This document shows positions 1 to 36,745 of a stretch of DNA of 36,974 nucleotides, in pieces (the stretch's first letter is position 1; every line of letters starts with the position of its first letter). This DNA comes from Fimbriimonadaceae bacterium (GTDB taxonomy: Bacteria > Armatimonadota > UBA10988): positions 77,508-114,481 of the forward strand of contig JADZEX010000048.1 of assembly GCA_020850355.1 (NCBI GenBank), written 5' to 3'. The position numbers and the translations under genes are program-made. Below the pieces are notes generated by a model. The model saw nothing but the letters and a program-made list of their open reading frames with translations, had not been told where the DNA came from and did no database searches.

Positions 1-851
1 CCGGCGCCACGGCGCCGGGGATCCGGGGCTCCGGGTCGGGCTTCCTGGTGGACGCCGCGAAGGGTTACCTGATCACCAACCAGCACGTCGTCGAAGGCGC
101 CGAGGAAGTCAAAGTCACGCTCGACGACGACCGCCGCCTGGACGCCAAGGTGGTCGGCGCCGACAAGCTCAGCGACATCGCCGTGTTGCAGATCACCGCC
201 GACAAGCTGCCCGCGGCGCCGTTGGCGCGGGGCGCCAAGCTGGTGCCCGGCGAGTGGGTGATCGCCATCGGCAACCCCTTCCGGGACTTCCCCCACACCG
301 TCACCGTCGGCGTGGTTAGCGCGCTGAACCGCAACATGCAGCTTCCGGGGCGCGACTACAACAACCTGATTCAGACCGACGCCGCCATCAACATGGGCAA
401 CTCGGGCGGACCGCTCTGCAACCTGCAAGGCGAGGTGATCGGCGTCAACGTCGCCATTGCCTCACCCACTGGCACCTACGCCGGACTCGGCTTCGCGATT
501 GTGATTGACGACGCCTGGCGGATTGCGCAGCATCTGATCGCCCACGGCGGGGTCCCCTGGCTGGGTGTGGCGACCGCCCCGCTGGATGCCGAGACCGCCG
601 CCCGGCTGGGCCTGCGCGCGGGGCAGGGCATCCTGGTCGACAGTGTGCGCGCCGAGGGGCCGGCCGACCGCGCCGGCCTGCGGGCCCAGGACGTCGTGTT
701 GAGCGTCGACGGCACCCCGGTCGAGGAACCGGGCAAGCTGCAGCAGCAGGTCCTGGCGGCGCAGCCCGGCACCGTGCTCAAACTGCGCGTCAAACGCGGC
801 AGTCGTGACTTGACCGTGCGTCCCAAGCTGGGGACGCGCCCGGGAGGCTGA
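1..851 (+). CDS. htrA: HtrA/DegP-family periplasmic serine protease, 5' truncated by the window edge
   Basis: The reading frame is already open at base 3, so the N-terminus (signal peptide and start) lies outside the window; the GTG at 48 falls inside the protease core and is not the start. A trypsin-like domain occupies about the first 175 visible residues. Its catalytic triad can be read directly: His in TNQHVV (codon 84-86), Asp in LSDIAVL (codon 174-176) and Ser in GNSGGPL (codon 402-404). One PDZ domain follows, from about base 555 to 840 (PWLGV...GILV...DRAGL...VVLSVDG). Family knowledge: HtrA proteins degrade or refold damaged envelope proteins. A single PDZ resembles DegS or HhoA types more than two-PDZ DegP. 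The next gene starts 2 bases after the stop, so the two are probably co-transcribed. Confidence 0.93.
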   Translation, partial: GATAPGIRGSGSGFLVDAAKGYLITNQHVVEGAEEVKVTLDDDRRLDAKVVGADKLSDIAVLQITADKLPAAPLARGAKLVPGEWVIAIGNPFRDFPHTVTVGVVSALNRNMQLPGRDYNNLIQTDAAINMGNSGGPLCNLQGEVIGVNVAIASPTGTYAGLGFAIVIDDAWRIAQHLIAHGGVPWLGVATAPLDAETAARLGLRAGQGILVDSVRAEGPADRAGLRAQDVVLSVDGTPVEEPGKLQQQVLAAQPGTVLKLRVKRGSRDLTVRPKLGTRPGG

Positions 852-32136: not shown

Positions 32137-32210
32137 CACCGCTCTCCTGTGAACCCTTCGACGCCAACCACACCGCGCCGGTTTGCGTTATCATCGGGGG
32201 CGAGGTGTGG

Positions 32211-33308
32211 ATGAAACGGATCGACCGCTACCTGCTCCGCGAGCTGCTGCCGCCGTTCGCGGCCGGCAGCCTGATCTTCATCGCGGTGATCCTGGTCAAT
32301 ACCATCGTCCTCAACAGCGCCGCCATCTTCTCGCTGAAACCACCAGCCAGCGTGATCTTGCGCTGGCTGCTCTTTCGCGTTCCGATCATCTTGACCTTCG
32401 CGCTGCCGGTCGGCTGTCTGCTGGCGACCTCCCTGGTCGTCTCGCGGCTGAATCGTGACTACGAGCTGCTGGCCTGCCGCCTCGGCGGCGTCAGCACCTG
32501 GCGGCTGTTCCGGCCGCTCTACCTGTTCGGCCTGGCCATCAGCGCCCTGAGCCTGGCCAACAACGAGTACGGCGCACCCTACTTCCGCACCAAAGCCAAC
32601 GAGGTGCTGGTGCAGCAGATCGTCCGGATGCCGGGGGCCTGGGTCAAGAGCGACATGCCGTTCCGGGCCGGTGATAGCAGTGTGGCGCATGTCGGGCGGG
32701 TCGATCTGAAGAAGCAGGAACTCTACTTCGTGCTGATCTACCAGTTCCGCGGGGGGCGCCCGCGTGAAGCGATCTGCGCCCCGCTGGCGGTCCGCGAAGG
32801 GCACGGCTGGGTGCTCCGAGACGGGCAGCACAACTGGTTCGACGAGCGCGGCCGCCTGCTACGCACCGAGCGCTTCGCGCGGCAGGCGGTGCAGTTCGAC
32901 CCGAACCTGGCCACGATGTGGGACGACGAGACCGAGCCAGAGCACCTCGCGGCGCACGAACTGGCCCGCCGTTACCGGCTCTACCACGCCGCCGGCGACC
33001 GGCCAGCGGCCAATCGGATGCTCTACTTCTACAACACCAAGTTCGCCGTGCCGCTGACCTGCCTGATCTTCGTGCTGCTGGCCGCCCCGCTCTCGCTGCG
33101 GTTCACCACCCCGGGCAAGGGCAACCCGTTGAGCGGGCTGAGCATCACCATCGCCGTAGTCTTCTTCTGCAACGGCACCATCAACTGGGCCAAGGTAATC
33201 ACCCTGGCCAGCCCGGATCCCTGGCTGCCGCCGATCCCCGCCGCCTGGCTGCACGTGCTCGTGTTCGGCCTGCTCGGCCTGCACCTCGCCCGCCGGCTGC
33301 AGCGCTGA
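32211..33308 (+). CDS. LptF/LptG-family lipopolysaccharide export permease
   Basis: The protein has 365 residues from ATG 32211, which has GAGG five bases upstream; a GTG at 32205 lies within that site and is less likely. It begins MKRIDRYLLRELLPPF, the classical opening of YjgP/YjgQ permeases. Three hydrophobic segments lie in the first 105 residues (SLIFIAVILVNTIV, FRVPIILTFALPVGCLL, LYLFGLAISALSL). A soluble periplasmic domain of about 140 residues follows, then three C-terminal segments (FAVPLTCLIFVLLAAPLSL, SGLSITIAVVFFCNG, LHVLVFGLLGLHL). Family knowledge: LptF and LptG with LptB extract lipopolysaccharide from the inner membrane and pass it to the LptC/LptA bridge. Only one permease is present here; its partner and the ATPase must be elsewhere. 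It supports a diderm cell envelope. Confidence 0.92.
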   Translation: MKRIDRYLLRELLPPFAAGSLIFIAVILVNTIVLNSAAIFSLKPPASVILRWLLFRVPIILTFALPVGCLLATSLVVSRLNRDYELLACRLGGVSTWRLFRPLYLFGLAISALSLANNEYGAPYFRTKANEVLVQQIVRMPGAWVKSDMPFRAGDSSVAHVGRVDLKKQELYFVLIYQFRGGRPREAICAPLAVREGHGWVLRDGQHNWFDERGRLLRTERFARQAVQFDPNLATMWDDETEPEHLAAHELARRYRLYHAAGDRPAANRMLYFYNTKFAVPLTCLIFVLLAAPLSLRFTTPGKGNPLSGLSITIAVVFFCNGTINWAKVITLASPDPWLPPIPAAWLHVLVFGLLGLHLARRLQR

Positions 33309-33312
33309 CCCC

Positions 33313-33341
33313 TTGACAGGCGGCCCGCGGCGGGCTACCGT
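33313..33341 (+). promoter_or_regulatory. Sigma-70-type promoter for the T-box leader and ileS
   Basis: A perfect -35 box TTGACA at 33313-33318 is followed, after exactly 17 bases, by TACCGT at 33336-33341, a weak -10 (three of six positions match TATAAT). Transcription would begin near 33348, just before stem I of the T-box. The promoter lies 4 bases after the LptF/LptG stop. Confidence 0.7.
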
Positions 33342-33349
33342 GGAGGATG

Positions 33350-33655
33350 TCAAAGACGTTGACGGGGACGAGTAGTCCTCTCCACGCTCTCAGAGAGCCG
33401 GCGGGTGGTGCGAGCCGGTGAGCGTCGAGGATCGAAGATCACCCCCGAGTCGGCGGTGCGACCCACCGGTAGCGCCGCTCGGCCTGTCCCACCGTTATCC
33501 GGGACCCGACATCGCGCCGTCCTGCAGTGGCCGGGCGCCGTGTCGCTGAGTGGGCACTCGCCAGCAGCCGCGACAGTGGGTCGCGCGGCGGGCGCCAAAT
33601 CGAGTGGTACCGCGGAGCCTTCCGTCTCGATGCAGACGGGGGCTTTTTGTTTTTG
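33350..33655 (+). promoter_or_regulatory. Isoleucine-specific T-box riboswitch controlling ileS by transcription attenuation
   Basis: The 363-base gap before ileS holds a promoter and a full T-box leader. Stem I shows the conserved AGTA turn (33371-33374), the AGAGAG bulge (33392-33397), the distal GGTGGTG...GAGCC element (33404-33415) and a specifier loop GAAG-ATC-ACCCC. The specifier triplet ATC (33438-33440) is an isoleucine codon and matches the downstream gene. A small hairpin, GTCCC/GGGAC (33486-33490 with 33501-33505), fits stem III. The T-box sequence GAGTGGTACCGCGG (33602-33615) provides the TGG bulge that pairs with the tRNA acceptor end. It overlaps a terminator hairpin. Expected behaviour: uncharged tRNA-Ile stabilises the antiterminator and ileS is transcribed; charged tRNA leads to termination. 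Confidence 0.95.
33616..33655 (+). terminator. Intrinsic terminator of the ileS T-box leader
   Basis: The stem runs from 33616 to 33644, pairing AGCC-TCCGTCT on the left with AGACGG-GGGCT on the right around a CGATGC loop, with one bulged T. It is followed directly by a T-rich tract (CTTTTTGTTTTT, to 33654). It immediately follows the T-box sequence, and in the antiterminator form the region just before it is sequestered. This is the off switch of the riboswitch. Confidence 0.92.
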
Positions 33656-33671
33656 GGGCCGGAGGATCGCG

Positions 33672-36434
33672 ATGAACTACCGTGACACGGTAACCTTGCC
33701 GCAGACCGACTTCGCGCAGCGCGCCAACCTGGCGCAGCGGGAGCCGGCGCGACTGCAGCAGTGGGCCGAGCTGGACCTCTACCAGCGGCAGCTCGCCCGC
33801 CGCGAAGCCGCCGGCGCGCCGGTCTTCGAGCTGCACGACGGCCCGCCCTACAGCAACGGTCACATCCACATCGGCCATGTCCTCAACAAGGTCCTCAAGG
33901 ACATCGTCACCCGTTACCGCGACCTCGCCGGCTACGTGGCGCGCTACCGTCCCGGCTGGGACAACCACGGGCTGCCCATCGAGTACGCCGTCAGCCAGGA
34001 GTTTCAGAAGAAGGGCAAGCCGCTGGAGACCGTCCCCCTGCGGCGGGCCTGTCGCGCCTATGCCGAGAAGTGGGTCAAGGTGCAGCGCGAGGACTTCCAG
34101 CGACTCGGCGTGCGCGGTGATTGGGAACACCCCTACCTGACGATGTCCCACGACTTCGAGGCCGGCATCGTCGAGGCCTTTGCAACCTTGGCGAAGCAGG
34201 GCTACGTCTACCGTGGCGAGCGCATCGTACAGTGGGCACCGTCGCTCCAGACGGCTCTCGCCGACGCCGAAATCGAGTACGCCGAGAAGGTCTCACCGAG
34301 CATCTACGTTGCCTTTGCGGCCACCACCCCCGGTACGGCGCTGGCCGGTCTGGAGGCGCCGCATCTGGTGATCTGGACCACCACGCCCTGGACCATCCCG
34401 GCCAATCTGGCCATCGCGGTGCATCCCGACTACGACTACCGTGTCATCGCAGCCGGGGGACGGCACTACCTGCTGGCCGACCACCTCGCCAACAGCCTGG
34501 TCGAGGCCTTCGGCTGGGCCGACGCTGTCACCGTGCGGGTCGTCAAGGGTGCAGCGCTGCTCGACGTCGTGACGCAGCATCCGCTCTACGACCGCCCATC
34601 ACCGGTGGTGGCAGCACGCTACGTCACCTTGGACGAGGGGACCGGCTGCGTCCACACCGCGCCCGGCCATGGTAAGGACGACTTCGGAACCGGCCGCAAG
34701 CATGGCCTGCCGGCCTACTGCCCGGTCGACGAACGGGGCTGCTTCACCACGGCGGTCGGCGAGCGCCTGGCGGGCCGCAAGGTGCTGCAAGCCAATGACG
34801 AGGTCTGCGCGATGCTCAGCGAGGCCGCAGCCTTGCTGCGGCGCGAGGAGTACCGGCACCAGTACCCGCACGACTGGCGAGCCCACGAGCCGATCATCTT
34901 CCGCGCCACGACGCAGTGGTTCCTGAACATCGACCACGGCCGCGACGGGGTGACCCACCGCGCCCAGGCGGTCGAGGCGGTCAAGGACGTCACCTGGTTC
35001 CCGAAGGAAGGCCACGACCGCATCCGACCGATGGTCGAGAACCGTCCCGACTGGTGCCTCTCTCGCCAACGCGCCTGGGGCGTCGGCATCCCGGCCTTCT
35101 ACTGCCAGTGCGGGGAGACCATCCTCAACCCCGCGACGCTCGACGCCGTGGTAGAAGTGGTCCGCCAGCAGGGCAGCGACGCCTGGTTCGAGTTGCCGCC
35201 GGAGCAGTTGCTGCCAGCCGGCTACACCTGCCCACAGTGCGGTGCCGCCGGCGCTACGTTCCGCAAAGAGACCGACGTGCTGGACGTCTGGTTCGACAGC
35301 GGCTCGACCCACCAGGTCTGCTACCCGCCGGAGCAGCGGCCGGTCGACCTCTACCTGGAGGGCAGCGACCAGCATCGGGGCTGGTTCAACTCCTCGTTGA
35401 TGGTCAGCGTTGGTGTGGACCGGCAGGCGCCCTACCGCAGCGTCGTCACCCACGGCTTCGTGCTTGACAGCGCTGGCAAGGCGATGAGCAAGAGCCTCGG
35501 CAACGTAGTCGCCCCGTCGACCGTGATCGACCAGTACGGTGCCGATGTGCTGCGGCTGTGGGTCGCCTCCATCGACTTCTGTCAGGATGTCCGCCTGGGC
35601 GACGAAATCCTGAAGCGGGTCGCCGACAGCTACCGCACGCTGCGCAACTCGTTCCGCTTCTTGCTGGGCAACCTGCACGACTTCGACCCGGCAGCCGACC
35701 GCGTCGCGTTCGATGCGCTGGGCGGTCTCGACCGCTACATTCTGCACCGCCTGGAAACGCTCAAGGCCCAAGCTGTGGCGCAGTATGAGAGCTACGAGTT
35801 CCAGAAGCTGGTCCAGGGCGCGCAGGCCTTTGTGCAGGAAGTCAGCGCGGTCTACCTCGACGTCGCCAAGGACGAGCTGTACTGCGGCGCGCCCAATGGT
35901 CCGGGTCGCCGCGCCATCCAGACGGTGCTCTACGATGTCTGTAGCGAACTGGCCCGGATCCTGGCGCCCGTGCTCTGCTTCACCTGCGACGAGGTCTGGG
36001 AGCATCTACCGGGAGTCGCCGGCAGTGTCCACCTGACAGACTGGCCGCTGGCGGTGCCAGAGCGGCTGGACGCAGCGCTGGCCAGCGACTTTGCGCGTCT
36101 CCTGGAGCTGCGCGACTTCGTCAAACTGCACCAAGAGCAGTTCAACGCCGACAAGCCGAAGGGAGAGAAGACCAATCCCCTGGAGATGGCGGTCGCCCTG
36201 GCCCTGCCCGCTGACGACCTGGCCATCGCGACGCGCTGGTCAGCCGAGCTGCGGGCGCTGTTGGTGGTCAGCCAGGTCTCCCTGGCAGCCGGCGAGCTGG
36301 CCTGCACCGTGCAGCCGGCCGCTGGCCACCGCTGCGAGCGCTGCTGGCGCGTCTGGGAGCCGGCCGAGTTCGGTCAAATGGCTGGTCATGAGAAGGTCTG
36401 CAACCGCTGCGCAGCGGTGGTGGAGCAGCGGTGA
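33672..36434 (+). CDS. ileS: Isoleucyl-tRNA synthetase
   Basis: The protein has 920 residues from ATG 33672, with GGAGG six bases upstream. The frame is open back to 33405, but that part lies inside the T-box and terminator and is not coding. Class I signatures are present: HIGH at residues 66-69 (in NGHIHIGHVLNKVLKD) and the KMSKS-type loop KAMSKS ending near 608. The editing domain holds WTTTPWTIPANLA and GTGCVHTAPGHGKDDF. The anticodon-binding region follows, and the C-terminus has a zinc-binding pair CERCW and CNRC, as in bacterial-type (IleS1) enzymes. It charges tRNA-Ile and edits mischarged valine. Expression should respond to tRNA-Ile charging through the T-box. Its last four bases overlap the start of the GIY-YIG gene. 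Confidence 0.98.
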   Translation: MNYRDTVTLPQTDFAQRANLAQREPARLQQWAELDLYQRQLARREAAGAPVFELHDGPPYSNGHIHIGHVLNKVLKDIVTRYRDLAGYVARYRPGWDNHGLPIEYAVSQEFQKKGKPLETVPLRRACRAYAEKWVKVQREDFQRLGVRGDWEHPYLTMSHDFEAGIVEAFATLAKQGYVYRGERIVQWAPSLQTALADAEIEYAEKVSPSIYVAFAATTPGTALAGLEAPHLVIWTTTPWTIPANLAIAVHPDYDYRVIAAGGRHYLLADHLANSLVEAFGWADAVTVRVVKGAALLDVVTQHPLYDRPSPVVAARYVTLDEGTGCVHTAPGHGKDDFGTGRKHGLPAYCPVDERGCFTTAVGERLAGRKVLQANDEVCAMLSEAAALLRREEYRHQYPHDWRAHEPIIFRATTQWFLNIDHGRDGVTHRAQAVEAVKDVTWFPKEGHDRIRPMVENRPDWCLSRQRAWGVGIPAFYCQCGETILNPATLDAVVEVVRQQGSDAWFELPPEQLLPAGYTCPQCGAAGATFRKETDVLDVWFDSGSTHQVCYPPEQRPVDLYLEGSDQHRGWFNSSLMVSVGVDRQAPYRSVVTHGFVLDSAGKAMSKSLGNVVAPSTVIDQYGADVLRLWVASIDFCQDVRLGDEILKRVADSYRTLRNSFRFLLGNLHDFDPAADRVAFDALGGLDRYILHRLETLKAQAVAQYESYEFQKLVQGAQAFVQEVSAVYLDVAKDELYCGAPNGPGRRAIQTVLYDVCSELARILAPVLCFTCDEVWEHLPGVAGSVHLTDWPLAVPERLDAALASDFARLLELRDFVKLHQEQFNADKPKGEKTNPLEMAVALALPADDLAIATRWSAELRALLVVSQVSLAAGELACTVQPAAGHRCERCWRVWEPAEFGQMAGHEKVCNRCAAVVEQR

Positions 36435-36745
36435 GCGAGCACCTCGCCTACCTCCTGCGCTGCGCCGACGGCACCCTCTACGTCGGCCTGACCGACGACC
36501 TGGAGGGCCGCGTCGCGGAGCACCAAGAAGGACTGGGCTCGGACTACACGCGCCGCCGCTTGCCGGTTGCGCTGGCCTGGTCCGACCGCTTCGCCACCCG
36601 TGAAGACGCGGCCGCCCTCGAGCGGCAACTGAAGGGCTGGAGCCGAGCCAAGAAGGAAGCCCTGATCCGCGGCGACTTTGCCGCCCTCCCTGCTCTGGCC
36701 AGACGCCGCTCGGCCAGGCCAATCGACCAGGAGCCAGGCCAATGA
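36431..36745 (+). CDS. GIY-YIG nuclease superfamily small protein (UPF0213/YhbQ-like)
   Basis: The protein has 104 residues, starting at GTG 36431, which overlaps the ileS stop (GTGA). The domain is complete: YLLRCADGTLYVGLTDDLE is the GIY-YIG strand pair (here YLL and YVG), the catalytic Arg is in LEGRVAEHQEG, YTRRRLPVALAW follows, and the conserved Glu is in AAALERQLKGWSRAKKEALI. Typical length for stand-alone GIY-YIG proteins is 80-110 residues. The members have nuclease-like folds, and their cellular substrates are mostly unknown. It is translationally coupled to ileS and so probably falls under T-box control, which is unexpected for a nuclease-type protein. The stop is followed by the inverted-repeat region at the window end. 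Confidence 0.9.
   Translation: MSEHLAYLLRCADGTLYVGLTDDLEGRVAEHQEGLGSDYTRRRLPVALAWSDRFATREDAAALERQLKGWSRAKKEALIRGDFAALPALARRRSARPIDQEPGQ

Follow-up and report, generated by a model that had tools for sequence, protein, structure and literature searches.

A predicted isoleucine T-box upstream of ileS in a Fimbriimonadaceae bacterium carries an extra helix conserved among T-boxes of two phyla

The window analyzed here, a stretch of 36,974 nucleotides from a Fimbriimonadaceae bacterium (assembly GCA_020850355.1, contig JADZEX010000048.1), contains the isoleucyl-tRNA synthetase gene ileS (33672..36434, +, ATG at 33672), whose 920-aa product matches the NCBIfam model TIGR00392 with 876 bits against a cut-off of 621. 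The nearest IleS proteins are those of Armatimonadetes MAGs, with 68% identity to UBA5419. Immediately upstream of the leader lies a gene for an LptF/LptG-like permease (32205-33308, +; both NCBIfam models matched below their cut-offs), and ileS is followed by a small ORF (36431-36745, +; MSEHLAYLLRCADGTLYVGLTDDLEGR...) that has the look of the GIY-YIG family and for which no NCBIfam match was found. Ahead of its ATG the ileS reading frame continues without a stop over most of the leader (33405-36434, +), the first GTG lying at 33405, and a gene caller may place the start of IleS within the T-box; ATG 33672 is the probable start, supported by the Shine-Dalgarno sequence and by conservation of the N-terminus. 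The features of the region ahead of this ATG are as follows.

33313..33341, +: predicted sigma-70-type promoter TTGACA-17 nt-TACCGT, from the sequence, with a layout shared with relatives
33350..33632, +: T-box leader RNA, a full-length covariance-model match to RF00230
33350..33449, +: stem I, from the RF00230 alignment and kept in ileS leaders of relatives
33371-33374, 33392-33397 and 33404-33410, +: stem I elements AGTA, AGAGAG and distal GGTGGTG, aligned to the RF00230 consensus
33438..33440, +: specifier codon ATC (Ile), its position fixed by the RF00230 alignment; ATC also in loci L116 and L121
33450..33479, +: stem II with GTAG S-turn at 33469-33472, from the RF00230 alignment
33480..33505, +: pseudoknot IIA/B, with a first helix from the RF00230 alignment (CGG 33480-33482 with CCG 33492-33494) and a second pairing read from the sequence and retained in relatives (GTCCC 33486-33490 with GGGAC 33501-33505)
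33492-33497, +: F-box CCGTTA, within pseudoknot IIA/B
33507..33545, +: extra helix CGACA-UC-GCGC (33507-33517) with GCGC-CG-UGUCG (33535-33545), outside the RF00230 model
33548..33599, +: start of the discriminator, from folds: purine string GAGTG 33548-33552, stem III 33553-33596 and AAA 33597-33599
33600..33630, +: antiterminator TCGAG 33600-33604 with CTCGA 33626-33630, from the RF00230 alignment, -9.8 kcal/mol
33605-33611, +: T-box bulge TGGTACC, in the antiterminator
33616..33654, +: intrinsic terminator AGCCTTCCGTCT / AGACGGGGGCT plus T-runs, hairpin 33616-33644, -15.3 kcal/mol
33661..33665, +: Shine-Dalgarno GGAGG, from the sequence, outside the terminator

The T-box model RF00230 matched the leader at 33350-33632 (+) over model positions 1-219 of 219, with 89.0 bits (E 4.1e-20, and E 1.3e-19 in a search of the whole genome), while the next-best Rfam match in this stretch scored only 15.7 bits. 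Run with default settings on the whole window, an Rfam scan reported no matches, because 89.0 bits falls below the RF00230 gathering score of 93; the element was therefore detected with an E-value threshold in place of the curated cut-off. The covariance search proposed in a preliminary description of this DNA thus returned a full-length and highly significant match, and the same score, read literally against the threshold, would fail the element. The deficit plausibly fits a GC-rich element with an insert of about 40 nt that the model lacks. Base-by-base reading of 33300-33700 found each landmark named in that description (AGTA, AGAGAG, GGTGGTG, ATC, T-box and terminator) at its place, and the agreement that it had noted between the ATC specifier and the downstream gene holds, with ileS identified by its protein family match. 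The discriminator, GAGUG...AAA, corresponds to the published motif of RRRxG, stem III and AA (PMC7583486).

The -35 element TTGACA (33313-33318) was confirmed to lie 17 bases before the -10 at 33336-33341, the latter being weak (TACCGT, three of six positions matching TATAAT). A further 11 T-box leaders of family f1 have the layout TTGAC[ACG]-16..18-TANNNT, and the -10 elements of the ileS leaders in the relatives G001 and G002 are TAGACT and TATACT. Transcription would start near 33348, and stem I, stem II and pseudoknot IIA/B would fold around tRNA-Ile(GAU), the anticodon of which would pair with the specifier AUC. The antiterminator and the terminator have 33616-33630 in common and are mutually exclusive. 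With uncharged tRNA, the NCCA end would pair with the bulge UGGU and hold the antiterminator (33600-33630), allowing RNA polymerase to read into ileS; with charged tRNA, the terminator (33616-33654) would form and transcription would stop. Membership of the T-box family thus predicts that ileS is controlled by tRNA charging. Among the 44 tRNAs found in the assembly tRNA-Ile(GAU) is absent, which probably reflects an unassembled rRNA operon.

Like the class I transcriptional T-boxes that RF00230 describes, the leader has all stems, the conserved elements, agreement between specifier and gene and the terminator/antiterminator switch; it differs in a 39-nt hairpin (33507-33545) that the model handles as an insertion and in scoring just under the curated cut-off. 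Specifier, T-box, discriminator and terminator are all retained upstream of ileS in G001 and G002; the G003 leader is almost complete on the two sides of an assembly gap, and in G004 (UWMA-0252, contig DTZQ01000269.1) the 3′ half is preserved. In the UBA5419 assembly (G003) this gap is an N scaffold gap inside the ileS T-box (L006, about 2760-2930, and L129), with antiterminator sequence repeated on either side of it. The covariance model, the retention of leader, promoter and terminator ahead of ileS in relatives and the protein family match support the T-box, its isoleucine specificity, its ileS target and its transcriptional mode. Taken together, these findings indicate that the window very probably holds a class I, transcription-attenuating isoleucine T-box upstream of ileS.

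Control mainly at translation initiation, through sequestration of the Shine-Dalgarno sequence, is known for actinobacterial ileS T-boxes, which belong to class II and share with the present leader the regulated gene and the amino acid (PMC1262725; TBDB, PMC7778990), and the organism is GC-rich. We nevertheless consider it very unlikely here: stem I is long rather than ultrashort, the hairpin of -15.3 kcal/mol, after which comes TTTTTGTTTTT, stops some 17 nt short of GGAGG and leaves it out, and the terminator with its T-runs is conserved in relatives. Neither of the features that define class II, a Shine-Dalgarno-sequestering hairpin and an ultrashort stem I, is present in the leader. That the match is a chance or decayed element in front of a constitutive ileS, as the score below the gathering threshold and the weak -10 might suggest, is already largely refuted, and has next to no likelihood, given an E-value of 4e-20, functional sequence elements that are all intact and conservation of the T-box at the same place in four relatives or more. 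When the whole leader is folded without constraints, the structure of minimum energy differs from the T-box fold, and its stability exceeds that of shuffles only weakly (z -1.33); as T-boxes need tRNA and include a pseudoknot, this counts for little against the transcriptional T-box.

Five T-boxes were found in this genome, on ileS (specifier AUC), valS and ilvB (both GUC), leuA (CUC) and probably pheS (UUC); the pheS assignment rests on N-terminal resemblance, while valS, ilvB and leuA were confirmed. In a sampling from family to phylum, T-boxes were present in 44 of 61 genomes. Armatimonadota T-boxes control the usual branched-chain genes, and loci L194, L207, L212 and L221 also place them on cimA, a non-discriminating aspS and, apparently, threonine synthase. 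A 2008 survey listed T-boxes in Firmicutes, Actinobacteria, Chloroflexi, Deinococcus-Thermus and two Proteobacteria (PMC2494555), and we found no paper in the open literature on T-boxes together with Armatimonadetes or Armatimonadota. The ileS T-box is in itself an ordinary, textbook one; what lifts the finding is the extra helix.

The preliminary description had put the distance between stem I and the T-box at about 140 bases and suggested unusual additions in this linker, possibly in stem II or III. The distance measures about 155 nt, and an addition is indeed present: a helix of its own, placed after pseudoknot IIA/B and ahead of stem III. Enlargement of stem II does not account for the long linker, since stem II matches RF00230 with no large insert. 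Instead, the unusual length is due to a second, conserved hairpin of 39 nt (33507-33545) directly after pseudoknot IIA/B and before the discriminator, which is built of five pairs, a U.G wobble beside a C.C mismatch and then more pairs. In the window's family, CCGUUA and the T-box lie 96-123 nt apart, compared with mostly 40-75 nt, holding one hairpin, in about 38 ileS T-box loci outside Armatimonadota. Bacillota ileS T-boxes (L036, L042, L052 and L066) resemble the present leader in stem I and the specifier region, pseudoknot IIA/B, stem III and the terminator, but show the shorter spacing, and the extra helix was absent from the approximately 38 Bacillota ileS leaders tested. A scan of the linkers of 86 Armatimonadota T-boxes for a helix with the UC/CG step gave about 19 good cases, nearly all of them 14-16 nt after CCGUUA. 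As these cases had been chosen by eye as well as by the scan, independent tests were made.

A covariance model, R1, was built from ten seeds that excluded the window (59 positions, CCGUUA flank included). In a local search it matched the window at 33492-33554 (32.9 bits, E 7.1e-7), and in 291 whole Armatimonadota genomes it gave 79 matches in 52 genomes (E <= 0.01), a count that leaves out the window's own copy, which appears in local searches only and goes unlisted under the strict filters of the whole-genome search. All 79 matches fall in T-box leaders: 66 lie inside independently found RF00230 matches and the other 13 proved to be T-boxes when scanned singly. By our count, only 26 of these 79 T-boxes exceed the RF00230 cut-off. 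In the phylum of Desulforamulus, R1 gave 108 matches in 86 of 299 genomes, and the 30 loci fetched were all in T-boxes (26 by a crude sequence test, L338 and L345 among them also by Rfam, and the other four by Rfam). The phylum of Hakubella yielded one match, in one of 198 genomes and again in a T-box. Among 76 ileS loci from many phyla, about half of them with T-boxes, there was no convincing R1 match outside Armatimonadota.

Because the CCGUUA within R1 itself marks T-boxes, we also built a hairpin-only model, R2, from 31 sequences. In a local search the window hairpin is recovered by R2 (18.9 bits, E 5.1e-5), whose 21 matches in the 291 genomes include 17 in T-boxes; the other four lie in coding DNA with E-values of 6e-4 to 9e-3, about the chance expectation. 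A free-standing motif outside T-boxes was therefore rejected.

In Armatimonadota, the extra helix occurs in leaders of ileS, leuA, cimA and aspS, and in the Desulforamulus phylum in those of leuA, aroF, pheA, trpS, a trpB-like gene, proC and trpE, with gene identities HMM-checked for examples and assigned for trpE by sequence. The helix is therefore not tied to one amino acid, and a restriction to ileS or to Armatimonadota was likewise rejected. The valS, ilvB and pheS T-boxes of the window's family are without it. A short Bacillota example is an aroF or trpS T-box that reads GGUAUCGG...CCCGUACC. A separate occurrence in Deltaproteobacteria was considered and rejected: the name of the record concerned, 'Deltaproteobacteria bacterium DeMMO5_3' (L302, genome G293), looks wrong, and the genome is assigned to the same phylum group as Desulforamulus.

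Several loci have further peculiarities. L341 (1501-1873) and L357 (1501-1985) each contain two extra-helix matches 300-400 nt apart in one leader, which suggests tandem T-boxes that both carry the helix. In L356 (1359-1657), a further long insert lies between stem III and the T-box, where another hairpin resembling a terminator, with a T-run, precedes the final T-box, and in L344 (1974-2227, -) a HEARO RNA (RF02033) lies near a T-box with the extra helix.

Pairing of the helix is maintained in 98.9% of cells in the 10-sequence seed, 97.4% among 40 distinct matches, and 99.1% and 97.7% in alignments of 37 and 31 sequences. Covariation scores across the four alignments were 0.37-0.73, whereas shuffled partners gave 0.16-0.26 and slid partners no more than 0.18. 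Two of the alignments, having been fitted to the model, are biased in its favour; no structure was used in aligning A2 and A5. Individual stem pairs are free to vary, and the loop shows no conservation, differing greatly in both length and sequence. The U.G pair, on the other hand, is near-invariant (40 of 40 and 36 of 37), the mid-helix step reads UC/CG in 69 of 80 rows, with most of the rest UC/UG or UU/UG, and the helix keeps a fixed distance from CCGUUA. This pattern of conservation suggests that the mid-helix step, rather than the loop or the plain stem sequence, makes a contact.

The anatomy of the leader, its family membership, the gene behind it, the conservation and covariation of the extra helix and its confinement to T-boxes are computed results; the role of the helix has to be argued from the pattern of conservation. 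Our best guess, a tentative one that falls somewhat short of even confidence, is that the accessory helix (33507-33545) acts as a rigid strut docking through the U.G/C.C step, which would fix how the half that decodes the tRNA is positioned relative to the half that senses aminoacylation. As most T-boxes are without it, the helix is not essential to T-box action.

A conserved internal mismatch in a variable stem is also typical of protein sites, and NusG-stimulated pausing has been reported near stem III of glyQS (PMC6197855), so that the helix might instead bind a ribosomal protein, NusA/NusG or a dedicated factor, or serve as a pause hairpin. We hold this to be improbable, though it fares best among the alternatives to an intramolecular strut: a general protein site should turn up in other places as well, whereas the motif is confined to T-boxes, R2 finding little beyond chance outside them, and sits at a fixed place. 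Somewhat less probable still is a passive, lineage-specific insertion, a spacer with no specific role. The great variability of the loop would suit a spacer, as would the many T-boxes that work without the helix and the insertions of unknown function noted in every T-box domain (PMC7583486), yet a spacer would not be expected to retain a mid-helix mismatch, here a near-invariant UC/CG step within a covarying stem, nor does it sit well with a fixed distance from the pseudoknot in two phyla and on genes of several amino-acid pathways.

Among the T-box accessory elements named in reviews is Stem Sa of staphylococcal glyQ, likewise an additional helix on the T-box core, which has been discussed among insertions in the discriminator (stem III and helix A2) (PMC7583486). 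By that review's description, the window helix differs in lying between pseudoknot IIA/B and stem III and in being found on many genes and in two phyla. TBDB annotates only stems I, II, IIA/B and III plus the antiterminator (PMC7778990), and no description of the extra helix was found in the open literature; subscription papers were mostly outside the scope of this search, and an earlier description is possible. In two phyla, a large subset of T-boxes shares this conserved module, which is missing from the standard model. The broader proposal, that these T-boxes form a widespread unnamed subclass in which the UC/CG step, a U.G wobble plus a pyrimidine-pyrimidine mismatch, makes a specific tertiary contact needed for charging sensing, and many members of which current models overlook, seems to us evenly poised between right and wrong.

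These findings extend T-box regulation of branched-chain amino-acid genes to a phylum unmentioned in the surveys consulted and expose a conserved RNA module that the standard T-box model lacks. A model extended by the helix should pick up T-boxes that are now lost in default annotation; at present, only 26 of the 79 in Armatimonadota pass the cut-off. The module sits where tRNA decoding meets aminoacylation sensing, a junction described in reviews as poorly understood; it offers a concrete target for mutagenesis, and its role at this junction a testable hypothesis.
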